Shown here: positions 5,673 through 16,214 of the stretch, in pieces
Numbering within the stretch: position 1 is the first letter of the stretch
Layout: every line of letters begins with the position of its first letter
DNA from: Moritella viscosa
GTDB taxonomy: Bacteria; Pseudomonadota; Gammaproteobacteria; Enterobacterales; Moritellaceae
Reading direction: 5' to 3'
Assembly (NCBI GenBank): GCA_000953735.1
Contig: LN554852.1
Coordinates: 620,001 to 684,000, forward strand
Length of the DNA stretch: 64,000 nt
Made by a program: the position numbers and the translations under genes
Notes under the pieces: model-generated
Seen by the model: only the letters and a program-made list of their open reading frames with translations
Database searches by the model: none
Told to the model about the DNA's origin: nothing

Positions 5673-7943
5673 TTAAGACACGACAGATGGAGCGCGTTTA
5701 GTACTATTTTTTATTTCCCCTATTATTAATCGAGCAAAGAACGCTGCTAAGAACAGCCCTCCCATACCGAATAAAATATCACCGGGGACACGTAACCAAA
5801 CAAACATTTCCACTAATTCACTATGAATTATTTCTGAGGATCTTGCATACCAATAACTATGCTCTACAGAAGCAATAAATTGTATTATACCAACAGGGAG
5901 CAGTGACATGAATACCATGCCTATCAAACCTAGATTTAAAGACCAGAAACACCACTTAAGTAATTTATCATCCCATATTGATAATTGATTTGTTAAACCA
6001 CGTAAGCAAGTTAGCATCAAACCAATGCCTAGCATTCCATATACGCCCATGAATGCAGCGTGAGCATGAGTTGCTGTTGTATTTAAACCTTGAATATAAT
6101 AAAGCGCTATTGGTGGGTTGATAAGAAAACCAAGCACACCAGCGCCAACCAAATTCCAAAATGCTGTTGCAACAAAGAACATAAATGCCCATTTATAACG
6201 AACCATCCAGCTTGTCGCTTTACGCATTCTATAAGTTTCAACAGCTTCAAAACCAATTAATGCGAGTGGTACAACTTCCAATGCTGAAAACATTGCACCC
6301 CATGCAACTACGGATGTTGGCGTACCTGTAAAATATACGTGGTGAAGCGTCCCAAGTAGACCACCAGTTAGGAATACAACGGTAGCAAATAAAACAGCAC
6401 TGTTAGCTGATTGAGCTCGAATAAGTCCTAAACGTACAAACACTAATGCAATGACTGATGTTGCAAATGTTTCGAAGAACCCTTCAACCCACAAATGAAC
6501 TACCCACCAACGCCAGTATTCAGCAATCGCTAAATTAGTATGTTTACCTTGTAAAAATCCAACACCATAAAATAATCCAATCGCTACACAGGATGCATAG
6601 AGAACCCAAATAACAGATTTCATTTCACTGTCTTTGGTTAGGGCGGGCTTAATTGCAGCCGTCACCAATGTTAGCCAAATTAATAAACCTGAAAACAGCA
6701 GGATTTGCCAGATACGACCAAGGTCTATATATTCTTGTCCTTGGTGTCCGACCCAGTAACTTAAGTCAAGATCAAAGTATTGTTGAATAGCAAGCCATTC
6801 TCCGGCCATAGAGCCAAGAACAACGAAAACTAAAGCAACCCAGAGTATATTCACACCTAGTTTTTGATATTTAGGCTCATGCCCAGATAAAGCTGGCGCA
6901 ATATATAGTCCAGTGCCTAACCAAGCCGTAGCAATCCAAAATACTGCAAGTTGAGTATGCCAGGTACGAGTTAGTGAATATGGTAAAATCTCTGCTAGTG
7001 GGTAACCATAAAAAGTCTGACCTTCAACTGCATAATGCGCAGTAATACCACCTAATAAAATCTGTAGGAGAAATAATCCGACAGCGGTTGCAAAATACTT
7101 GACTAAAGCTTTTTGCGAAGGCGTTGCTTTAACATCAAATAATGGATCTTTAGTGGGTACCTCTGGTAGTGGATGCTCTTTAAGACTGGCGTGATACCAA
7201 GCAAGCGCCCCTATAGCAGCAATAAGCAGAACCATACTTAATATTGACCAAAAAATATTATTTGATGTCGGTGTATTACCGATTACGGGATCGTGTGGCC
7301 AGTTATTCGTGTAAGTGTAGTTCTCACCGGGGCGCTCTGTCACTGCAGCCCACGCTCCCCAGAAGAAAAATGCAGATAATTTTTGACGATTTTCAGCGGT
7401 TGAAATTGTGTTTTCTTTCATCGCGTAGTCTTCACGAATAGGCTGGAAATCAGGATTATCACCAAATGAATTTGAATAGTAATGCTGCAGCGTACTAATT
7501 ACTTCTGCACGACGTGTTGAGATTACTAATATATTGTTATTAGCATCAAAGCGATTAGATCGTATATCTTCACGCAGAAGGCTTTCTAATGCAGCTTGTT
7601 GATAACTAGCTAACTGTTCAAATTGAACTGAGAATTGTTCTATTGCTGCTTTATCAAGCCAAAGTGTTGATTCTCGATGAAGCCAATCCGCAGTCCAGTC
7701 TGGCGCAACATATGAACCATGGCCCCAAATAGAGCCTAATTGATGTCCCCCCATAGAGCGCCAAACAAGCTGACCATTCTGGATGTCTTCTTTGGTAAAT
7801 ATCACTTCACCTGTTGACGTTACAACTTTCTCGGGGATTGGTGGTGCTTCACGATAAATTTCACTTCCTAAGCTCAAAAGTATACTAAATGATGTCACAC
7901 ATACAATAATGAGAGCAATTAGGGAGAATTTTTGTTTAGTCAT
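5673..7943 (-). CDS. norB: Quinol-dependent nitric oxide reductase (qNOR)
   Basis: 756-residue inner-membrane enzyme that reduces 2 NO to N2O using quinol. The long periplasmic N-terminal region (about residues 30-230) is the cytochrome c-like extension typical of qNOR and has no CxxCH heme motif. The membrane domain keeps the heme-copper oxidase ligands: H329 (RTWHTQLAVFW) and H628 for the low-spin heme, H626 for the catalytic heme (THAHAAF), and H483, H534, H535 with E487 (HLWVEGFFE, LHHVYFTG) for the non-heme iron. A lone norB of this type generally detoxifies NO. It is monocistronic and has a sigma-54-type promoter with three NorR-like sites directly upstream (7990-8092). Confidence 0.95.
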   Translation of the reverse strand: MTKQKFSLIALIIVCVTSFSILLSLGSEIYREAPPIPEKVVTSTGEVIFTKEDIQNGQLVWRSMGGHQLGSIWGHGSYVAPDWTADWLHRESTLWLDKAAIEQFSVQFEQLASYQQAALESLLREDIRSNRFDANNNILVISTRRAEVISTLQHYYSNSFGDNPDFQPIREDYAMKENTISTAENRQKLSAFFFWGAWAAVTERPGENYTYTNNWPHDPVIGNTPTSNNIFWSILSMVLLIAAIGALAWYHASLKEHPLPEVPTKDPLFDVKATPSQKALVKYFATAVGLFLLQILLGGITAHYAVEGQTFYGYPLAEILPYSLTRTWHTQLAVFWIATAWLGTGLYIAPALSGHEPKYQKLGVNILWVALVFVVLGSMAGEWLAIQQYFDLDLSYWVGHQGQEYIDLGRIWQILLFSGLLIWLTLVTAAIKPALTKDSEMKSVIWVLYASCVAIGLFYGVGFLQGKHTNLAIAEYWRWWVVHLWVEGFFETFATSVIALVFVRLGLIRAQSANSAVLFATVVFLTGGLLGTLHHVYFTGTPTSVVAWGAMFSALEVVPLALIGFEAVETYRMRKATSWMVRYKWAFMFFVATAFWNLVGAGVLGFLINPPIALYYIQGLNTTATHAHAAFMGVYGMLGIGLMLTCLRGLTNQLSIWDDKLLKWCFWSLNLGLIGMVFMSLLPVGIIQFIASVEHSYWYARSSEIIHSELVEMFVWLRVPGDILFGMGGLFLAAFFARLIIGEIKNSTKRAPSVVS

Positions 7944-7989
7944 TTTGACTCCTCAATAATTAATTAACAATCTCATTAGTCAATTTTTA

Positions 7990-8005
7990 TGCCAAAGTTT
8001 AACCA
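7990..8005 (-). promoter_or_regulatory. Sigma-54-type promoter of norB
   Basis: Read on the minus strand the sequence is TGGTTAAACTTTGGCA, giving the obligatory GG-N10-GC spacing of -24/-12 promoters (GG at 8003-8004, GC at 7991-7992). Initiation would fall near 7979, about 36 bases before the norB ATG. The other bases of the consensus are only partly matched. The three NorR-like sites immediately upstream make the call credible. Confidence 0.65.
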
Positions 8006-8037
8006 GTTGTTTATATTCAACTTATTTACTTTTGGCT

Positions 8038-8092
8038 GTCATATTGACTGTGCCTGTCAATGTCAATATGACAGCGCTATTGTCTTTATGAC
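8038..8092 (-). promoter_or_regulatory. Three NorR-type enhancer sites upstream of norB
   Basis: Three copies of the NO-sensor NorR pattern GTCA-N3-TGAC: GTCATATTGAC at 8038-8048, GTCAATATGAC at 8062-8072, and GTCTTTATGAC at 8082-8092 (one base off). Start-to-start spacings are 24 and 20 bases. E. coli NorR needs exactly three such sites upstream of norVW, so the arrangement is diagnostic. No norR gene is present in the window; the regulator must be encoded elsewhere. The remaining bases of the 7944-8284 gap hold the promoter and a hairpin at 8200. Confidence 0.8.
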
Positions 8093-8199
8093 AAAGACTT
8101 AATGTTGAACCTTTTTATTGCTGAGAGAGAAGGGTAATCACCTATATGGTGGTTTGGAGGAGGTTTTGGGGGTCATAGACAGTAGACAAATTAGTTTAC

Positions 8200-8240
8200 C
8201 ACCGAACCTAAACTTATTTGATAAATGTTGAGGTTCGGTG
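8200..8240. repeat. Inverted repeat downstream of fpr
   Basis: CACCGAACCT (8200-8209) is perfectly complementary to AGGTTCGGTG (8231-8240) with a 21-base loop. It lies 45 bases past the fpr stop codon on the minus strand and could be its terminator, but no T run follows on either strand. Confidence 0.45.
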
Positions 8241-8284
8241 TTATTTAAATACTGACTGTCACCCCTGAGTGGATCGACTATAAA

Positions 8285-9067
8285 TCAACTTACTTTCCAG
8301 TAATTTTCTGAACTGAATTGTCCTGATTTAGCTTGTAGATGTTTACTAAACCCTAATGATCTTAGCGTATCACTCGTGTCTTTAACCATTTTAGGATTAC
8401 CACACATATACAAGAAACTTGATTTTTGACATAGCGATACTTTACATTCTCTCTCGAGTTCTCCCGTTCTAAGTAGTTCCGGAATTCTTCCTGATAAATT
8501 TCTGGGTGTCTGTTCTCTAGAAATAATTCGCACATATTTTAGTTTTCCTTGATATTTTGATTCAAGCTGCTTTATTTTATCTTTATACGTGAGCTCTGAT
8601 TTTTTTCTCACCGCATGAACCAAAAATATATTGTTAAAACGCTCATTTTCATCTTCTTCTTCGAGCATTGAAATAAAAGGGCCAATTGCAGTACCTGTCG
8701 ATAAAAGCCATAGATCTTTGGAGTTAGTTGGAACGGCATCAAGGGTCATGAAGCCTGCACCTTCTGTACCAACGTATATATAATCATTAACTTTCAACTG
8801 ATGGATTAAAGGAGAAAGATTACCCTTCGGGTCGGTAATAATTAGAAACTCCAGTTCACCTGTCTGTTTATGGTTTTCTGGACTATTTACTATAGAATAT
8901 GCTCTTCTATGGAATTCTTTGTTTTTATCGTAAAGAGCTAGTTTGGTAAATTGTCCTGAGATATAAGGGATACTTCCAGATCGAATTCGAATTGTAAATA
9001 ATGATTTGGTCCAATCTATGCGACTAACAACTTTGCCTAAATTGAAGTTCATATTCTTATATGGCAT
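8285..9067 (-). CDS. fpr: Ferredoxin/flavodoxin-NADP(+) reductase, Fpr-like
   Basis: 260-residue cytosolic flavoprotein that would exchange electrons between NADPH and ferredoxin or flavodoxin. FAD-binding motif RRAYSIVNSPE (about residues 54-64), GxGxG-like NADP loop STGTAIGPFISML (about 127-140) and CGNPKMVKDT near the C-terminus align well with E. coli Fpr, ending in the equivalent of the EHYW tail (SENYWKVS), a little longer than the 248-residue E. coli protein. Start ATG has AGGAGG 12 bases upstream. It has its own NO-type promoter (9118-9238), unlike E. coli fpr, which is under SoxRS. It may therefore be an NO-responsive paralogue, feeding electrons to Fe-S repair or another NO-defence enzyme; this role is inference. 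Confidence 0.88.
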   Translation of the reverse strand: MPYKNMNFNLGKVVSRIDWTKSLFTIRIRSGSIPYISGQFTKLALYDKNKEFHRRAYSIVNSPENHKQTGELEFLIITDPKGNLSPLIHQLKVNDYIYVGTEGAGFMTLDAVPTNSKDLWLLSTGTAIGPFISMLEEEDENERFNNIFLVHAVRKKSELTYKDKIKQLESKYQGKLKYVRIISREQTPRNLSGRIPELLRTGELERECKVSLCQKSSFLYMCGNPKMVKDTSDTLRSLGFSKHLQAKSGQFSSENYWKVS

Positions 9068-9185: not shown

Positions 9186-9238
9186 GTCATTGTGACAACA
9201 ATTTGTATTGTCATAATGATAATCACTGTCAATATGAC
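9186..9238 (-). promoter_or_regulatory. Three NorR-type enhancer sites upstream of fpr
   Basis: GTCATTGTGAC at 9186-9196, GTCATAATGAT at 9210-9220 (one base off) and GTCAATATGAC at 9228-9238. Spacings are 24 and 18 bases, nearly the same layout as upstream of norB. The third copy is identical to the middle norB copy. The arrangement points to NorR-sigma-54 control of fpr. Confidence 0.75.
9211..9225 (+). promoter_or_regulatory. Fur-box-like site 1
   Basis: TCATAATGATAATCA matches 12 of 14 defined positions of the 7-1-7 Fur motif TGATAATnATTATCA. Extended to the classical 19-mer (9212-9230) it matches 16 of 19. It overlaps the second NorR-like site and touches the third, about 190 bases upstream of the plus-strand metal operon and about 145 bases from fpr. 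Confidence 0.5.
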
Positions 9239-9347: not shown

Positions 9348-9362
9348 TGAAAACAATTATCA
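9348..9362 (+). promoter_or_regulatory. Fur-box-like site 2, upstream of the metal operon
   Basis: TGAAAACAATTATCA matches 12 of 14 defined positions of the 7-1-7 Fur motif. It lies 50 bases before the first ATG of the plus-strand operon, where a repressor site would cover the promoter. With site 1 it suggests iron-responsive control of genes 9413-16214. Confidence 0.55.
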
Positions 9363-9412: not shown

Positions 9413-10117
9413 ATGCCTTCTCTCAGTCAGCCTCTCACCCAGACATCTACAAGATCGAAAAACAAAGTGGCTAATTCAAAGAACAAAACACTCTTAAAAA
9501 ACAAACAAGTGCAATTATGGGCGCGTCGCTTACATATCTATATTTCTATGGCGCTACTCTTGGTCGTATTATTTTTCTCTGTTACGGGTATTACTTTAAA
9601 CCGCCCAAGTCTGTTTGTGAGTAGTCAGCCTGATATTCAAGAAACCATTCTTACTTTACCGCAAAGCTTATTTAGCAATGCCGATGGTGCCGTTGCTGTG
9701 GATAAAGTCGGTATCGTTAATTACCTTACCGAACACGCGAAGCTTTCTGGTCAACCTTCTGCATTAGATGTATTTACCGAAGTTGAAGACGGTGAATTAA
9801 TTGAAGGTGAGATCGCGATGGACTACAAAGGTCCGGGTTATAACGTCGCGGTATTTATTGACATGACCAGTGCTGAAGCTGTGATTGAAAAGACCCATTA
9901 CGGTGTTATTGCGGTATTAAATGACTTACATAAAGGCCGAAATAGTGGCGGCGTATGGAAGCTGTTTATCGATATTGTCGCATTACTTATGGTGTTCTTT
10001 GTATTAACCGGTGTGTGTTTATTAGTGCCGAAAAAGAAAACCTTCGCAACCTCATTGAAATGGACCTTGTTTGGTTCCCTCGTTACCTTGGCTATTTTTG
10101 TGGTGGCCGTTCCTTAA
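9413..10117 (+). CDS. PepSY-associated transmembrane protein
   Basis: 234 residues with PepSY_TM architecture: a basic cytosolic N-terminus, first membrane helix about residues 42-62 after the typical WARRLHIYISM motif, a periplasmic loop with a PepSY-like segment (about 95-165), DLHKGRNSGGVWKLFIDIVALLMVFFVLTG-type second helix, and a third C-terminal helix. The membrane histidines in RRLHIY and LNDLHKG are conserved in the family and may bind heme or metal. Proteins of this type sit beside siderophore, heme or metal-uptake genes. First gene of the operon, behind two Fur-like sites; the following gene starts 11 bases after its stop. Confidence 0.75.
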   Translation: MPSLSQPLTQTSTRSKNKVANSKNKTLLKNKQVQLWARRLHIYISMALLLVVLFFSVTGITLNRPSLFVSSQPDIQETILTLPQSLFSNADGAVAVDKVGIVNYLTEHAKLSGQPSALDVFTEVEDGELIEGEIAMDYKGPGYNVAVFIDMTSAEAVIEKTHYGVIAVLNDLHKGRNSGGVWKLFIDIVALLMVFFVLTGVCLLVPKKKTFATSLKWTLFGSLVTLAIFVVAVP

Positions 10118-10127
10118 AGGATCTTGT

Positions 10128-10661
10128 ATGACTTTGTTATTTAAGCGTCTTAGTCAGTGCGTTGCACTATTAAGTTGTCTGTTATTACCGGCTTATTTTG
10201 CCTCGGCCGCGCCAATTCCGGCCACTGCCACACTCGATGTTGAATTTAGTCTGCCTAAGATTGATACCACTATGTATGCCCGCCCTTATGTGGCGATATG
10301 GATCGAAAACTCAAAGCGTAAATCAGTGCGTACTGTTGAGCTATGGGTGGGTAAAGATGAATGGTTAAAAGATTTACGCAGCTGGTGGCGAAAAGTCGGA
10401 CGTTATGATCGTGCTTTAGTTGACGGCGTAACATCAGCAACACGTCCTGCTGGTGATTATCGTTTCACTTGGGATGGCTTAGATAGTGATGGTAACCGCG
10501 TTGAAGCGGGCAATTATACATTTTATGTTGAAGTAGTGCGTGAGCACGGTGGTCGTAATTATATCCGCCAAAAAATGACTTTAGGTGACAAACCGTTTAG
10601 TCACACTATTGATCCGACAGAAGAAACCGGTGATATCCGTATCAACTACCTAATTAAATAA
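10128..10661 (+). CDS. DUF2271 periplasmic protein
   Basis: 177 residues from the ATG at 10128 (AAAGGA seven bases upstream); the reading frame is open further back but inside the previous gene. Signal peptide with hydrophobic core about residues 9-24, ending near ASAAP. The body contains YVAIWIENSKRKSVRTVELW and GDYRFTWDGLDSDGNRVEAGNY, the latter like the FlgD/Ig-type beta fold seen in DUF2271. The combination PepSY protein-DUF2271-DUF4198 recurs in iron-regulated loci of other proteobacteria (from memory). Biochemical function is unknown; a periplasmic accessory role in metal uptake is inferred from context. Confidence 0.72.
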   Translation: MTLLFKRLSQCVALLSCLLLPAYFASAAPIPATATLDVEFSLPKIDTTMYARPYVAIWIENSKRKSVRTVELWVGKDEWLKDLRSWWRKVGRYDRALVDGVTSATRPAGDYRFTWDGLDSDGNRVEAGNYTFYVEVVREHGGRNYIRQKMTLGDKPFSHTIDPTEETGDIRINYLIK

Positions 10662-10679
10662 TAGAGCGAGTAAAGATTA

Positions 10680-11516
10680 ATGACTACAGTAAAAAAATTG
10701 AAAGCGTTAGGTCTAGCCTGTGCGGTTATTGCGGGACTAGCGGCAACAACAACGGCAAACGCACATCCACGTTGGCTATTACCATCACACTTCACTGTAT
10801 CGAAAGAAGGTGGCGATTGGTTAACATTTGATGTAACGGCATCACACGGTACTTTTGTATTTGATAAACCTGCGGGCAGTGAATTTGCACAAGTGATCAT
10901 GCCTGACGGTCGTAAAGAGCGCCCTAACTTTGTGATCCGCGGTAAACGACGTTCTATCTTTGACTTCTACTTTGAAGAAGAAGGCACGCACAAGGTAGCG
11001 ATTAACAATGTACCGTCTTACTACACCTATTATAAAGCGGGCCGTCGCGATACAGTTAAATATGCTAAAGCAAATAAAGCAGAACGCGCGAATATAATCC
11101 CTGAAAAAGCACGCAATGTAAGTACACAATTAAGTTATACCCGCGCAGAAAGCTATGTAACGGTTGGAATGCCAACAGAAAAGGCATTAGAAATCGAAGG
11201 TAAATACCTAGAAATGCGTCCACTGACTCATCCATCAGACATTGTTGAAGGTGAAGAAGTAAGCTTCCAATTCTTCTTTAACGGTGAACCTCAAGCTGGT
11301 GTTGTTGCTGATATTACTCGTGAAGGTACGTTATATCGTAACCATCAAGAGCAGATTAATGTAGTAAGTGACAAGGACGGTAACGTAACGTTCACGCCAA
11401 ATGCTGCGGGTCGTTATCTGATGAAAGCTAACTACAAAGGTGAATTGAAAAATGATCCTATGGCGGACAAAGCAAGTGTGAACGTGCACTTAACGTTTGA
11501 AGCTTTATTACAATAG
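10680..11516 (+). CDS. DUF4198 periplasmic protein
   Basis: 278 residues with a signal peptide ending near TANAHPRWLLP, so the mature protein begins with a histidine as is usual for DUF4198 (the start resembles AHxxWLxP). The C-terminal half carries GEEVSFQFFFNGEPQAGVVADITREG and FTPNAAGRYLMKANY, a carboxypeptidase-regulatory-like beta sandwich. Family members are associated with nickel, cobalt, iron or copper uptake loci. It begins 18 bases after the DUF2271 gene and is probably co-transcribed with it. It is followed by a terminator-like hairpin at 11569. The metal handled is not evident. Confidence 0.75.
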   Translation: MTTVKKLKALGLACAVIAGLAATTTANAHPRWLLPSHFTVSKEGGDWLTFDVTASHGTFVFDKPAGSEFAQVIMPDGRKERPNFVIRGKRRSIFDFYFEEEGTHKVAINNVPSYYTYYKAGRRDTVKYAKANKAERANIIPEKARNVSTQLSYTRAESYVTVGMPTEKALEIEGKYLEMRPLTHPSDIVEGEEVSFQFFFNGEPQAGVVADITREGTLYRNHQEQINVVSDKDGNVTFTPNAAGRYLMKANYKGELKNDPMADKASVNVHLTFEALLQ

Positions 11517-11568
11517 TTTTTAGCGACAACTAAGCCAGTCCTTGTGGCACTGAATTATTTATATTATG

Positions 11569-11605
11569 GCCTGTAATTAGACGCAATCTGATTACAGGCT
11601 TTGCT
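11569..11605 (+). terminator. Intergenic terminator or attenuator inside the metal locus
   Basis: GCCTGTAAT (11569-11577) pairs with ATTACAGGC (11591-11599) over a 13-base loop and runs into TTTGCTTCTT. It lies 53 bases after the DUF4198 stop and just before the heptamer repeat, so it may separate two transcription units or attenuate read-through. Confidence 0.6.
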
Positions 11606-11633
11606 TCTTACTTAGTTATTACTTAGTTATTTA

Positions 11634-11689
11634 TTCATAGTTCATAGTTCATAGTTCATAGTTCATAGTTCATAGTTCATAGTTCATAG
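11634..11689 (+). repeat. Heptanucleotide tandem repeat, (TTCATAG)8
   Basis: Eight perfect head-to-tail copies of TTCATAG fill 56 bases. The tract ends ten bases before the GAGG ribosome binding site (11699-11702) of the gene at 11708 and starts after the terminator at 11569-11599, so it occupies the place where a promoter or leader of the downstream genes would lie. Upstream are two looser copies of an ACTTAGTTATT unit. Pure short tandem repeats like this are prone to slippage. Confidence 0.95.
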
Positions 11690-11707
11690 TTAATTGTTGA
11701 GGTCTTC

Positions 11708-12040
11708 ATGACAAAAATGCCAATCAAATCGACGTTGTTAGCGCTTTCATTTGTGATAACGGGTTTATTTTCAGGGGCGGTAAGTGCTCATTTTCCATTA
11801 ATGAATTGTTGGTTAGAGTCTGACACAGTGGTTTGTGAAGCGGGTTACAGTGATGCCAGTACTGCTGTTGATTACGCTGTAAATATGTATGACTACGATG
11901 ACAACCTGATTGCTAAAGCTGTAACAGATAAGCGTTCAATTGCAGAATTTAGCAAACCGGATACGGACTTCTATCTAGTATTCGATGCCGGTCATGAAAA
12001 CCCGGTTGAAGTCGATGTTGTTGAGATAAGCGCAAAATGA
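11708..12040 (+). CDS. Small periplasmic protein of the metal locus
   Basis: 110 residues. Signal peptide with hydrophobic core about residues 8-25, cleaved near AVSAHFPLMNCW, so like its DUF4198 neighbour the mature protein starts with a histidine followed by an aromatic/proline segment. Two cysteines (C34, C43, in MNCWLESDTVVCEAG) could form a disulfide. The rest looks like one small beta domain. No family is recognised with certainty; it could be a shortened relative of DUF4198. It ends in ATGA overlap with the next gene, so the two are translationally coupled. GAGG ribosome binding site six bases before the ATG. Confidence 0.6.
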   Translation: MTKMPIKSTLLALSFVITGLFSGAVSAHFPLMNCWLESDTVVCEAGYSDASTAVDYAVNMYDYDDNLIAKAVTDKRSIAEFSKPDTDFYLVFDAGHENPVEVDVVEISAK

Positions 12041-12648
12041 TCAGTCAATCAGTCCATGCAGACGATGGTGGTCGTGAAGGGAAATGGGTGGCGTTATTAA
12101 TTGTTCTAATCTTAGCGATCGCGGCATTACTTTTACCTTATCACCAAGCGATATCGAACAAGAAAGTACTCGCGAATCATCAGATCTCGATTAAAGATTT
12201 ACGGTCTGTTGAATTGGCGATGATCGCGGAACTGCGCTTAGCACATGAAGAGATCCGCAATATTCATCAAGACAGTCTTGAGCTAGAAAGTGTCGAATTT
12301 GAAGGTGTCGATATTTGGCCTGATATGGCTGAACTAAAAGAGCTATGGTTAGCGCCATTTATTATAGATAAAAGCTGGGAACGTAAAGGTAAGCATGACT
12401 GGCGTAAAGTCGCGCCAGCTTTATATCAAGGCATTCCTGCGCTGACAACGGGCAGTGTTGCGGTGTTATTAAATAGCCAAGATACACGACCAGAAGTGTG
12501 GCTAGCATTAGATATACCCATTCCTGCACCGATGACAGCAAACGCGATTAATGCAGACGATCTTATTAATGCAGGCTGGAAACAAGTGGTGTTTACTGAT
12601 GATCACGATTCAGGCAATACAGAGCATACAGATAAAGACCGCCACTAA
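12037..12648 (+). CDS. Membrane-anchored accessory protein of metal ABC locus
   Basis: 203 residues. A single N-terminal membrane helix (about residues 17-34, WVALLIVLILAIAALLLPY) anchors a periplasmic domain; there is no cleavage site. The C-terminal tail is rich in Asp and His (DDHDSGNTEHTDKDRH), a likely metal-collecting segment. It overlaps the preceding gene by four bases and precedes the binding-protein gene by ten. From memory it resembles DUF6162 proteins found next to TroA-type transporters, but this should be verified. Function is unknown; delivery of metal to the transporter is a guess from its tail and position. Confidence 0.6.
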   Translation: MISQSVHADDGGREGKWVALLIVLILAIAALLLPYHQAISNKKVLANHQISIKDLRSVELAMIAELRLAHEEIRNIHQDSLELESVEFEGVDIWPDMAELKELWLAPFIIDKSWERKGKHDWRKVAPALYQGIPALTTGSVAVLLNSQDTRPEVWLALDIPIPAPMTANAINADDLINAGWKQVVFTDDHDSGNTEHTDKDRH

Positions 12649-12658
12649 GATGTGACGC

Positions 12659-13693
12659 GTGTCGACAATGAGAATAGCCATGATGAAAAAAAGCATAATG
12701 AAAAATAGCATCAATACAAGCCTGAAAAATCTAATCACAGCCGTCGCTACTACAGCGGTATTGCTCATATGCGGGTCATTACAAGCAGCAGAAAAATTAA
12801 CAATCGGTATTACCTTACAGCCTTATTACAGCTACGTAAAAGCGGTTGTTGGCGATAAAGCGGAAGTATTACCTTTGGTTGACGAAGGTTTTAATCCCCA
12901 CAATTACCAACCACAACCAAATGATTTACGTCGTCTAAAGCAGATGGACGTGATTGTGGTGAATGGGATTGGCCATGATGACTTTGCCTTAAAAGTCATT
13001 AAAGCCGCAAACCGTGATGATCTGATTGTGATTGAAGCCAATAAAGACGTGCCGTTATTACCTGCTATTGGTCAATCTGTCGGTGACGGTGCAGTAAATC
13101 CACATACATTCGTTGGTTTATCAACGACGATTCAGAAGGTTTACACCATAGCAACGGAGCTGTCTAAGATCGACCCTGATAACGCACGTACTTACCGTAA
13201 AAATGCGCGTAAATACGCAACCGAATTTCGCAAAATGAAACGTCAAGCTATGCTCACGCTGGGTGACTTAGATACATCCGGTATGCTGGTGGCGACTACG
13301 CACAATGCTTATGGTTATATTCTGCAAGAATTCGGTGTTGACGTCGCGGCGGTGATAGAACCTGCACACGGTGTTGAGCCGAGTGCGAGTCAGTTGCAAG
13401 AAACTATCGAAAAGATCCGTGCGTCGAAGATCGATGTGTTGTTCTACGAATTAAATATGCCAAGCCGCTATGTTGAAACTATTGAGGCGGCCACTGGTGT
13501 GCAACTTTACCGTTTCTCACACATGACACATGGTGCGTACGAAGAGAGCAAAGTGGCTGTTGAAATGAAAAGTAACTTAGATACCTTAGTTGAAGCAATG
13601 AAGTTTGCAGCAAAGCATTCACTTGCTGATACAGCAGTAACCGCTCCTTCAACAACTCATCATGCCTCTATCAACAAGCAGCAAGGAAGTTAA
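12659..13693 (+). CDS. TroA/ZnuA-type metal-binding protein of ABC transporter
   Basis: Up to 344 residues from a GTG at 12659; better signal peptides begin at ATG 12698 (MKNSINTSLKNLITAV, cleaved near LQAAEK), so the annotated N-terminus may be too long. It is a cluster A-I periplasmic metal receptor. Candidate ligands are H81 (GFNPHNYQPQP), H149 (VNPHTF), H215 (TTHNAYGY) and a late acidic residue in YELNMPSRY. The histidine-rich loop typical of many zinc receptors is absent. Followed after two bases by the ATPase gene. The metal could be Zn, Mn or Fe; Fur-like sites upstream of the locus favour Fe or Mn over Zn. Confidence 0.85.
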   Translation: MSTMRIAMMKKSIMKNSINTSLKNLITAVATTAVLLICGSLQAAEKLTIGITLQPYYSYVKAVVGDKAEVLPLVDEGFNPHNYQPQPNDLRRLKQMDVIVVNGIGHDDFALKVIKAANRDDLIVIEANKDVPLLPAIGQSVGDGAVNPHTFVGLSTTIQKVYTIATELSKIDPDNARTYRKNARKYATEFRKMKRQAMLTLGDLDTSGMLVATTHNAYGYILQEFGVDVAAVIEPAHGVEPSASQLQETIEKIRASKIDVLFYELNMPSRYVETIEAATGVQLYRFSHMTHGAYEESKVAVEMKSNLDTLVEAMKFAAKHSLADTAVTAPSTTHHASINKQQGS

Positions 13694-13695
13694 TT

Positions 13696-14448
13696 GTGGG
13701 ACCTGCAATTCGTTTACAAAATGTCGGTTTGAAATACGGTGATCATGTCATTTTAGAAGACATTTCACATTATTTAGAAGCGGGTCAATGCCATGTGATC
13801 ATGGGGCCAAATGGTGGTGGTAAAACATCATTGTTACGCTCTATTTTAGGGTTAACCCCTTTCGCTGGGAATATTGATATTCAGTGGCCTGAGCATAAAG
13901 GCAATATTGGTTATGTGCCGCAAAAGGCTACGTTTGAGTCTAGTTTACCCTTTACGGTGATGGATTTTATTTTGTTAAATAAAAGTCGTAATCCACTGTT
14001 TTGGCGTAAGTGTAAAAAAGATCAGGATGATGCACTGGCACAACTCGATCGTGTGGGTATGGCTAACCGTACCGACCGTCGTATGGGACAGTTATCGGGT
14101 GGAGAACAGCAGCGTGTGCTATTTGCGCAGTCACTATTGGATAACCCTGATCTACTGGTACTTGATGAACCAACAACGGGGATGGATGAACAAGGCGTAC
14201 GTTACCTTGAGTCATTAATTCATGAATTAGTTCGTGAAAATAAAACTATCTTAGCAGTGCATCATGATGTCAGTGCTGTGCGCCGTTTAGATGGTCAAGT
14301 GCATGTGGTTAATCGTCAGTTAGTTGATTCTGGCTCCGTGTCTGATGTGTTACGATCAGATAAAATTGAACGATTATTCAATCATTACACAGGTGGTAAT
14401 GTTACTGATAGTCGTTCAGTAATAGACTGCGCTCAAGGAGTTAAATAA
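13696..14448 (+). CDS. Metal ABC transporter ATPase (ZnuC/TroB family)
   Basis: 250 residues, GTG start with AAGGAAG six bases upstream. Complete nucleotide-binding domain: Walker A GPNGGGKT (residues 37-44), Q-loop VPQKATF, signature LSGGEQQRV, Walker B LLVLDEPTTG and H-loop AVHHDVSAV. It energises uptake through the adjacent permease and is specific to the manganese/zinc/iron chelate family by similarity and context. Its stop overlaps the permease start (TAATG), so translation is coupled. Confidence 0.93.
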   Translation: MGPAIRLQNVGLKYGDHVILEDISHYLEAGQCHVIMGPNGGGKTSLLRSILGLTPFAGNIDIQWPEHKGNIGYVPQKATFESSLPFTVMDFILLNKSRNPLFWRKCKKDQDDALAQLDRVGMANRTDRRMGQLSGGEQQRVLFAQSLLDNPDLLVLDEPTTGMDEQGVRYLESLIHELVRENKTILAVHHDVSAVRRLDGQVHVVNRQLVDSGSVSDVLRSDKIERLFNHYTGGNVTDSRSVIDCAQGVK

Positions 14449-15323
14449 TGGATACGATCCGTCATTGGGCCCAACTGGGTGTGGATGCTGGTTGGTTGAG
14501 TGAGAGCTTCTCTTATTCGTTTATGGTGAATGCGGTGGTTGCCGCGTTATTACTGGGGCCACTACTCGGTGGTTTAGGTACGTTAGTGATCGCCAAACGC
14601 TTAGCTTTCTTTTCAGAAGCGGTTGGGCATGCTGCGTTAACAGGTATTGCCTTAGGCGTATTATTAGGTGAGCCCGCTGAGAATCCGATCATCGGCTTAT
14701 TTAGTTTTTGTATGATCTTCGCCTTGCTACTGCACTTTGTGCGTAACCGTACTAATGTGCCATACGATACCTTGGTTGGGGTGTTTCTGGCATTTGCATT
14801 AGCAGTTGGTGCGGCATTACTGATGTATGTGGCACGTAAGATTAATATCCATATGTTAGAAAATGTGTTGTTTGGTTCGGTCTTAACGATCACTGATTAT
14901 GACTTGCTTATCTTAGCGGTAACCTGCGGTGTTATTTTATTGGTATTGATACCGACTTTTAACCGTATTTTATTAACCTGTATCAGCCCTGATATTGCTA
15001 AAGTACGTGGTTATGCGACTAATTTTTACGACTATTTATTTGTCATGATGATCACCCTCGTTACGATTGCTTCGGTAAAAATTGTTGGCGCTGTATTAGT
15101 GGGGGCACTGCTATTAATCCCAGGTGCAACAGCACGGTTATTAACGAAAAACATGGGTAGCTTTGTGCTTATGTCTGCATTTCTAGCGACGATCAGCTGC
15201 CTACTAGGCACGATCTTACCAATGGAATTAAAACTACCCATTCCTTCTGGCGCGGCGATCATTATTGTATCGACGAGCTTCTTCTTAACTGCCACTTGTT
15301 ACCGCATTGTTCGTAAGGGATAA
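14448..15323 (+). CDS. Metal ABC transporter permease (ABC-3 family)
   Basis: 291 residues with about eight hydrophobic segments. The family signature near AKRLAFFSEAVGHAALTGIALG (about residues 47-68) and later ASVKIVGAVLVGALLLIPGATA are those of ZnuB/TroC/MntB permeases. It forms a homodimeric channel in the inner membrane fed by the binding protein at 12659. Overlaps the ATPase gene by one base and precedes the next gene by six bases. Metal specificity cannot be assigned from sequence alone. Confidence 0.92.
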   Translation: MDTIRHWAQLGVDAGWLSESFSYSFMVNAVVAALLLGPLLGGLGTLVIAKRLAFFSEAVGHAALTGIALGVLLGEPAENPIIGLFSFCMIFALLLHFVRNRTNVPYDTLVGVFLAFALAVGAALLMYVARKINIHMLENVLFGSVLTITDYDLLILAVTCGVILLVLIPTFNRILLTCISPDIAKVRGYATNFYDYLFVMMITLVTIASVKIVGAVLVGALLLIPGATARLLTKNMGSFVLMSAFLATISCLLGTILPMELKLPIPSGAAIIIVSTSFFLTATCYRIVRKG

Positions 15324-15329
15324 CCGATT

Positions 15330-16214
15330 ATGACTTCTTCATTATTCACCATCAGTGCGGCTGTGCTACTGCTGACTTCAGCGCTTAGTTTTAGTCAAAA
15401 GGTGAGTGCCGCAGATATTCTTACCGCGACACCTGTGACTTATATGTTAGCGACAGAGCTAACGAAAGGCACGGGTATTTCCACACAATATTTACCACCA
15501 AAACGTTATGGTATATCGCGTTTACCTAACTGGTTTAGCTCGAAAGGTGCGACGTTAACAGAGAAAGCAGCCATTGATGCACAAGTGAGTATCACCCTTG
15601 GTGCTGTATGGCCGCAAGATCCATTATTCGTACACGCACGTAAAGGCAACATTCGTATGATTGAAGTGGATGCATCACAAGCTATTTCTCCTCGTGCGCA
15701 AGGTGTTGCGGCGCTGCGTTTAGAAGACGGTAGTATTTCGCCTTATACTTGGCTTAACCCGACTAATTTAACCCGTATGACGGCGATTGTGAGTCAAGAT
15801 CTACAACAAGTATGGCCACAGCAAGCTGCGACGATTGCGAGTAACCAGCAAGCCTTGATGATGTCGGTGCGTCACTTAATTAACCAGCAACAGACCATGT
15901 TATTAGACAATGAAATTGATTCTGTTGTGTTGCTGTCGAGTGAGTTAGAAGACTTTGCGTCGGGCAATCAATTGTTTGTGGTTGAACGTTTAACTAAACC
16001 AGAATTGGAATGGTCGGCAGCAAATAAGCAGCAACTTGTTAAGCTATTAACTGAGGATAATAGCTTATGGGTACTGACCTCGAAAAGAGCGAGCAAGCAG
16101 TTAAAAACCTTAGTGCCTAATCCGGCTCGTATCTTAACGATTGACAGTATAGATCGTTGGGGCCGTGGTATTAACGCTGATAAACCATTACAACGCTGGC
16201 AGTTAGCGCTTTAA
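15330..16214 (+). CDS. Divergent TroA-like periplasmic protein without metal histidines
   Basis: 294 residues with a signal peptide (cleavage near KVSAADI). The layout follows a metal receptor: ADILTATPVTYMLATELTKG as first strand and helix, a loop where the first histidine is expected (LPPKRYGISRLP), and SPYTWLNPTNLTRM where canonical proteins have DPHxWLDPxN. Both expected histidines are replaced. It is the last gene of the locus, six bases after the permease. It may be a scaffold, a chaperone that hands metal to the real receptor, or bind a non-metal ligand. The relationship to TroA is a motif-level judgement. Confidence 0.6.
   Translation: MTSSLFTISAAVLLLTSALSFSQKVSAADILTATPVTYMLATELTKGTGISTQYLPPKRYGISRLPNWFSSKGATLTEKAAIDAQVSITLGAVWPQDPLFVHARKGNIRMIEVDASQAISPRAQGVAALRLEDGSISPYTWLNPTNLTRMTAIVSQDLQQVWPQQAATIASNQQALMMSVRHLINQQQTMLLDNEIDSVVLLSSELEDFASGNQLFVVERLTKPELEWSAANKQQLVKLLTEDNSLWVLTSKRASKQLKTLVPNPARILTIDSIDRWGRGINADKPLQRWQLAL

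Follow-up and report, generated by a model that had tools for sequence, protein, structure and literature searches.

Analysis of a 64,000-nucleotide stretch of the Moritella viscosa genome (the window; contig LN554852.1 of a 5.09 Mb genome in three contigs) identified a nine-gene operon at 9413-16214 that would form a Fur-controlled machine releasing iron by reduction and importing it, a reading to which we assign a probability of a little over three in four. All nine open reading frames (ORFs) lie on the plus strand, and adjacent genes overlap or are at most 18 bp apart, with the one exception of a 191-bp gap between the gene for a DUF4198 protein and that for a protein of 110 amino acids (aa). 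An earlier note on this DNA had reported nine same-strand genes here and proposed a single metal-uptake system with accessory envelope proteins, neither Znu, Mnt nor Fec; the ORF list and Pfam bear out the genes, their families and this general description, the second receptor-like protein scoring just under its ZnuA cut-off. The proposed novelty in kind and the notion of wholly unknown periplasmic carriers were not supported, since genes four to nine are homologous to Pseudomonas fpvJKCDEF and the first three (PepSY, DUF2271 and DUF4198) form an already proposed iron-reducing module. Each part was known and their joining appears to be new; in the open-licence literature no paper was found that joins the Fpv core with the PepSY-DUF2271-DUF4198 module or links FpvJ to NikL, a nickel-importer subunit. 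Archetypal siderophore pathways bring the whole ferric chelate into the cytoplasm. To our knowledge, pyoverdine is the main case in which periplasmic reductive release coupled to a dedicated importer with two binding proteins has been worked out.

Conservation of the operon was examined with its first periplasmic binding protein (SBP1). Named genomes were searched with an SBP1 alignment built from six genomes; of 596 matching stretches listed, 563 encode a relative, and the 80 best were retained, a biased sample of at least 563 relatives. Nine genes were contiguous, on one strand and in identical order in 79 of the 80 loci, the last (L097) beginning inside the cassette at a contig end, so that the arrangement is not one of chance. 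The loci belong to Moritella, Photobacterium, Vibrio, Aliivibrio, Psychromonas, Ferrimonas and Motilimonas, with a further record identified only to order level (Vibrionales), and the nearest SBP1 among the matches listed came from four Moritella records (90-94% identity). Moritella sp. PE36, a laboratory isolate, has the cassette as well (locus L040). In whole-genome samples, DUF6162, the family of the fifth gene, was present in 14/59 relatives, in 14/397 genomes of the phylum (13 above cut-off) and in 10/11 genomes of the genus, M. viscosa included. The 13 regions fetched around the relatives' DUF6162 matches also carried the nine genes in identical order.

By sequence and order, genes four to nine are homologues of Pseudomonas fpvJ-K-C-D-E-F. 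In Pseudomonas, the Fpv system removes iron from pyoverdine within the periplasm before importing it; PMC6954188 has FpvG reducing, FpvC holding ferrous iron, FpvF binding pyoverdine and FpvDE as putative importer. Gene order in six Pseudomonas-like loci (L133-L138) identifies them as the fpvGHJKCDEF set of that paper; their head gene encodes 397-434 aa (400 aa with PepSY_TM and PepSY, PF03929 and PF03413, in L137), and the second gene of L136 and L137 encodes 178-180 aa without a Pfam match. Across the six loci, identity was 48-52% between SBP1 and FpvC, 39-41% between the ATPase and FpvD and 53-55% between the permease and FpvE. The second binding protein (SBP2) was 26-29% identical to Pseudomonas-like FpvF (E 3e-27 to 3e-29). 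The FpvK homologue was matched in all six loci, a Pseudomonas-like FpvK fitting the DUF6162 model at 7e-45, and the 110-aa protein was 31-33% identical to FpvJ, with a match listed in five of them (L136 being without one). As described in the earlier note, the FpvK homologue has a His/Asp-rich C-terminal tail (...DDHDSGNTEHTDKDRH) and, by eye, one N-terminal membrane anchor.

The best Protein Data Bank (PDB) matches of SBP1 were 6r3z (1.5e-89) and 6ru4 (2e-89), joined by 6r6k, while the remaining 49 listed sequences, binders of Mn, Zn and Fe, matched at 6e-27 or weaker. The same three chains were the top PDB matches, at about 4e-157, of the FpvC of L137, which adjoins the 400-aa PepSY_TM and PepSY gene, and on this match and the PAO1 name we take them to be FpvC. 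Six positions that are Gly in chain 6r6k are all His in SBP1 and in 81/81 sequences, and seven His of SBP1 are kept in 81/81. In no column of SBP2 do more than 26 of 81 sequences carry His, leaving no conserved His, and SBP2 is a candidate siderophore binder. Thus the operon shares with the Fpv system the six ordered homologues and a PepSY_TM (PF03929) membrane protein at the head. It differs in having PepSY_TM_like_2, DUF2271 and DUF4198 proteins where Pseudomonas has FpvG (PiuB type, about 400 aa, PepSY_TM plus PepSY) and FpvH, and in having no known counterpart to the pyoverdine context and its PvdRT-OpmQ recycling, although no search was aimed at pyoverdine or efflux genes.

Variant settings of the core were observed in two further loci. 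L139, the second locus of a Pseudomonas-like genome (G278), holds FpvK-, FpvC-, FpvD-, FpvF- and FpvJ-like genes with two DUF6644/CopD-like membrane proteins and a DUF4198 protein; no FpvG- or FpvH-like gene was identified in it, and it is perhaps a third reductase module joined to the Fpv core. In L141 (genome G675), a double-length FecCD permease and a TonB-dependent receptor are encoded divergently from the core genes.

The PepSY protein retains H41 and H173 in 80/80 sequences, as expected of haem ligands, and is predicted to be a haem-dependent ferric reductase. The PepSY-DUF2271-DUF4198 trio was found in 6/6 other DUF2271 loci of the class, which at 3.4 kb are too short to show a following Fpv core. 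PMC8238504 counts 2833 PepSY-like clusters with DUF2271 and 1500 with DUF4198, proposes them as iron reductases and describes PepSY-DUF2271-DUF4198 clusters as Fur-repressed in Shewanella and Caulobacter. Other published work describes enrichment of Alteromonas DUF2271/DUF4198 genes under iron limitation and reduced fitness in ethylenediaminetetraacetic acid (EDTA) upon insertion into a Caulobacter PepSY-DUF2271-DUF4198 locus. With the flavinylation clusters of PMC8238504 the operon has in common the three families and the Fur link, and it differs in being joined to a dedicated FpvCDEF-type importer, in the lack of ApbE within the cassette and in the flavinylation motif of DUF2271, which reads TSAT here. 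The canonical [ST]GA[ST] was found in 3/80 sequences, with Ser for Gly in 77/80, and in 1/6 further DUF2271 genes from the class; the genome has two ApbE genes at other sites. Electrons may pass without covalent flavin mononucleotide (FMN), or the motif may be looser than published. The C-terminal part of DUF4198 is also matched (E about 1e-3) by the PDB group 9mhi/9mhk, named phosphoribosylglycinamide formyltransferase, a name that looks wrong.

Conserved N-terminal residues suggest that FpvJ and DUF4198 may be histidine-first metal chaperones. In 80/80 sequences of either protein, the residue directly after an A-x-A-like signal-peptidase site (-1 Ala; -3 A, V, S, T or L) is His. Under a crude signal-peptide rule, His was the +1 residue in 79/79 DUF4198 proteins and in 71/76 small proteins with a called signal, compared with 3/323 other genes of the loci. 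The His start recognized earlier in the small protein (mature HFPLMNC...) is conserved and recurs in two accessory proteins. The same site is present in five Pseudomonas-like FpvJ (ALA/HNPMCEC, the slash marking cleavage), in the FpvJ-like proteins of L139 and L141, and in DUF4198 proteins from six further loci of the class. Among the conserved His are H56 (80/80) and H37 (77/80) in DUF4198, and H28 and H96 (80/80 each) in the FpvJ homologue, where a His lies within a DAGH motif. The structure model of the latter is a macroglobulin-like beta-sandwich with a predicted local distance difference test (pLDDT) score of 94.

Profile comparison indicates that FpvJ is a remote homologue of NikL, a new link. 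The NikL model matched the small protein in 8/8 members (best 1.8e-11), with 36.5 bits shown for the window protein against a cut-off of 100; in sampled genomes of the class, matches of this model to long unrelated frames start only at about 4e-5. Aligned by hhalign to a NikL profile (12 of 15 NikL-model loci), the small protein gave a probability of 98.7 and an E-value of 3.7e-16 over 89 columns that include the signal-peptide end. An A-x-A-H-like site stands at the signal end in 15/15 NikL-model loci (14 above the model cut-off), and most members of both families have DAG(xG)H close to the domain end. Like the nickel energy-coupling factor (ECF) importer NikKMLQO, the operon pairs a NikK-like protein (DUF4198) with a NikL-like one (FpvJ), both with His at the N-terminus after predicted cleavage. 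Unlike it, the operon has a TroA-type ATP-binding cassette (ABC) transporter in place of NikMQO, and its FpvJ homologue is without the C-terminal segment of NikL that resembles a membrane span. The DUF4198 of Ideonella binds Ni via His1 and His18 with a dissociation constant (Kd) of 18 nM (PDB 9GCB; PMC12537917), and a search of the text of that paper for FpvJ, iron and PepSY returned none. We tentatively propose, as a possibility on which we would not yet rely, that FpvJ and DUF4198 act as a pair akin to NikL/NikK, in which the N-terminal amine, His1 and one further His would hold Fe(II) released by the PepSY protein and pass it to FpvC. Such a pair would explain FpvJ of Pseudomonas and extend N-terminal-His metal sites to iron, and one accessory module would then serve both nickel ECF importers and importers that release iron from siderophores.

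Inspection of the upstream region indicates a Fur-like box at the predicted operon promoter, from which we infer control by Fur itself. Sites for Fur, Zur, MntR and NikR were scored against consensus strings. A 7-1-7 box of at least 11/14 was present within 300 bp before PepSY in 71/80 sequences (the window and 79 loci), compared with 83/1600 shuffles and 62/574 control genes; at 12/14 or better the counts were 24/80, 11/1600 and 18/574. In the window, both upstream boxes score 12/14, and a 19-mer Fur search with up to three mismatches over its whole length returned a single site, at 9212 (0.05 expected). The best upstream site in most relatives is a 15-mer of the TGAAAACAATTATCA type, identical or similar. 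Upstream scores for the Zur, MntR and NikR consensus were at or below shuffle level, in keeping with the earlier call of Fur-like boxes rather than a Zur box.

The route of the metal can be outlined from these homologies; gene content and order, conservation, fpvJKCDEF homology, the His sets and the Fur-box footprint are observed, and the metal, chelator, electron path and order of hand-off are inferred. A chelate of Fe(III), most likely with a siderophore, would enter the periplasm via a TonB-dependent receptor encoded elsewhere in the genome and would dock on the FpvF-like SBP2 together with the FpvC-like SBP1. Partnered by DUF2271, the PepSY protein, a predicted b-haem protein, would deliver electrons to the periplasmic face of the membrane, and reduction of Fe(III) to Fe(II) would cause the chelator to release its iron. 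Fe(II) might then be held by the N-terminal-His proteins, or directly by SBP1, or both, before entering the cell through the ATPase/permease pair. If correct, the Fpv core would be common with another reductase in marine Vibrionaceae, Moritella and Psychromonas, the PepSY-DUF2271-DUF4198 module would gain a named iron importer, and the role of FpvJ would become testable via one residue, the mature N-terminal His.

Features of the nine-gene operon and its upstream region (window coordinates; domain values are E-values)
Feature	Position	Strand	Remarks
Fur-like box, two overlapping 7-1-7 15-mers	9211..9231	+	12/14 each; overlaps promoter-like site 9190-9217
Second Fur-like box, TGAAAACAATTATCA	9348..9362	+	12/14
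PepSY_TM_like_2 membrane protein	9413..10117	+	PF16357 7.9e-55, PF03929 5.4e-13; 234 aa; position of FpvG in Pseudomonas
DUF2271 periplasmic protein	10128..10661	+	PF10029 1.1e-45; predicted reductase partner
DUF4198 (NikK-like) periplasmic protein	10680..11516	+	PF10670 5.8e-48; predicted mature N-terminal His, ANA/HPRW
FpvJ homologue, 110 aa	11708..12040	+	no Pfam family above cut-off; predicted mature N-terminus VSA/HFPLM
FpvK homologue, DUF6162	12037..12648	+	PF19659 6.4e-13
SBP1, FpvC-type periplasmic metal-binding protein	12659..13693	+	Pfam ZnuA 5.4e-52
FpvD-type ABC ATPase	13696..14448	+	PF00005 (ABC_tran) 3.1e-27
FpvE-type permease, ABC-3	14448..15323	+	PF00950 4.8e-54
SBP2, FpvF-type second periplasmic binding protein	15330..16214	+	ZnuA-like 1.2e-6, 28.6 vs cut-off 29 bits

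The Fur boxes, the reductase module and the Fpv core together favor iron, probably as Fe(II), as the metal transported. On account of the NikK/NikL kinship, nickel is the most serious rival, and the operon could be a nickel or cobalt importer in which DUF4198 and the 110-aa protein form a NikK/NikL pair added to a TroA-type ABC transporter, with the PepSY module as a bystander. The profile match of the FpvJ family to NikL and the nickel site of the Ideonella protein speak for this. Set against them, the NikR consensus is at chance where Fur boxes are present, no NikM, NikQ or NikO gene accompanies the NikK/NikL-like genes in the cassette (the permease is PF00950 and the genome's single CbiM-like match lies far off, at 1096318), FpvJ belongs to the iron system fpv in Pseudomonas, and a haem reductase would have no evident use for Ni(II). 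PMC2667541 also allows that orphan NikK/NikL may act in nickel-independent pathways, and we consider a nickel or cobalt importer unlikely. The transporter genes could also be read as a Mnt/Znu-type system for manganese or zinc with extra components, given that SBP1 falls in Pfam ZnuA, that its best NCBIfam models are AztC, EfaA and MntC (all far under cut-off), and that ATPase and permease share superfamilies with Mnt/Znu. The operon has the TroA-type binding protein, ATPase and permease of ZnuABC, MntABC and SitABCD, but also a second binding protein, all-His ligand positions, a reductase module and Fur-like boxes; Zur and MntR sites are at chance, and neither the Zur box nor the Zn-type ligand set of ZnuABC was found. 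Where SBP1, like FpvC, has His288, two of the three other TroA-type proteins of the genome have Asp and the third Leu, and its conserved His106 and His237 are missing in all three. Of the two with Asp, one carries a His-rich loop and the other a His-His-Glu-Asp set, and they are read as separate Zn-type and Mn/Fe (SitA-like) systems. A manganese or zinc importer therefore appears quite improbable; the earlier suggestion of iron or manganese narrows to iron, in view of the reductase module, FpvC homology and Fur boxes and of the presence of the separate His-His-Glu-Asp protein.

Copper reduction and uptake would have a precedent in the PepSY_TM protein CrpH of Bordetella, which has been linked to copper, with the N-terminal-His proteins, often copper sites, acting as histidine-brace carriers. 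The authors of the CrpH work, however, place it in its own sequence cluster, separate from FpvG and others. Together with the Fur boxes, the FpvC homology and the stabilization of Ideonella DUF4198 by Ni, Zn and Co but not Cu (PMC12537917), this makes copper a very remote prospect. No greater weight is given to the view that the first three and last six genes are separate iron systems that happen to be neighbors. The 191-bp gap of the window with its stem-loop and tandem repeat would suit such a division, as would the trio in the other DUF2271 loci of the class, where a following Fpv core would be invisible. Nonetheless, contiguity in 79/80 loci, a median gap of 53 bp at the joint (more than 100 bp in 10/79 loci) and the correspondence of the trio's position to that of fpvGH in Pseudomonas all bind the two parts together.

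Several observations weigh against an iron-release importer as proposed here. DUF2271 is without the canonical flavinylation site and the cassette without ApbE, and blastp at E 0.01 gave no match of any cassette protein to the FpvG and FpvH of L137. The Fur evidence is tempered by the low share of sequences (24/80) with a box of at least 12/14 and by weak sites in several Psychromonas, Ferrimonas and Motilimonas loci. In the A+T-rich upstream stretches a scrambled Fur string also scored slightly above shuffles (mean 12.29 vs 11.74; at least 13/19 in 25/80 sequences vs 69/400 shuffles), indicating that part of the Fur excess reflects base composition. Nickel was bound best of four metals tested by the Ideonella DUF4198 (PMC12537917), making another metal possible. 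One genome of the genus (G003) has neither DUF6162 nor a close SBP1, so the system is dispensable. Furthermore, the ORF list shows no receptor adjoining the cassette in the window, and four named Moritella loci, one with 3.4 kb of upstream DNA, were scored without receptor or TonB upstream.

Across the relatives, TonB-dependent receptor and/or TonB genes occurred within 7 kb upstream in 55/79 loci; TonB with ExbB was found in 38 of the 79, a receptor in 42 and both in 29. Among the 24 loci without them, the upstream DNA is shorter than 4 kb in six, and a receptor lies downstream in two (L118, L119). Pfam families were checked for ten receptor/TonB genes, of which one (L118) was an aconitase, and some far-edge receptors rest on partial frames. 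The M. viscosa genome itself encodes 17 TonB-dependent receptors, with two IucA/IucC siderophore-synthetase genes beside one of them. In L070 (984-5915) and similar Vibrio, Photobacterium and Aliivibrio loci, genes for DUF3450, MotA/ExbB, 186-aa and 134-aa proteins, TonB and a TPR protein lie directly upstream, which suggests that a particular TonB set serves the operon in loci of this type.

Within the window, the gap between the DUF4198 and FpvJ-homologue genes contains a stem-loop at 11568-11600 (arms GGCCTGTAAT and ATTACAGGCT), which may partition the transcript, and a perfect 7-bp tandem repeat, TTCATAG, of 8.3 copies at 11634-11691, directly 5' of the FpvJ-homologue start; its copy number could change and thereby alter the spacing. 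Upstream of the operon, at 5673-9067 on the minus strand, are a 756-aa gene resembling quinol nitric oxide reductase and a gene for an FAD-/NAD-binding oxidoreductase, in place of which most other loci of the genus carry different genes.

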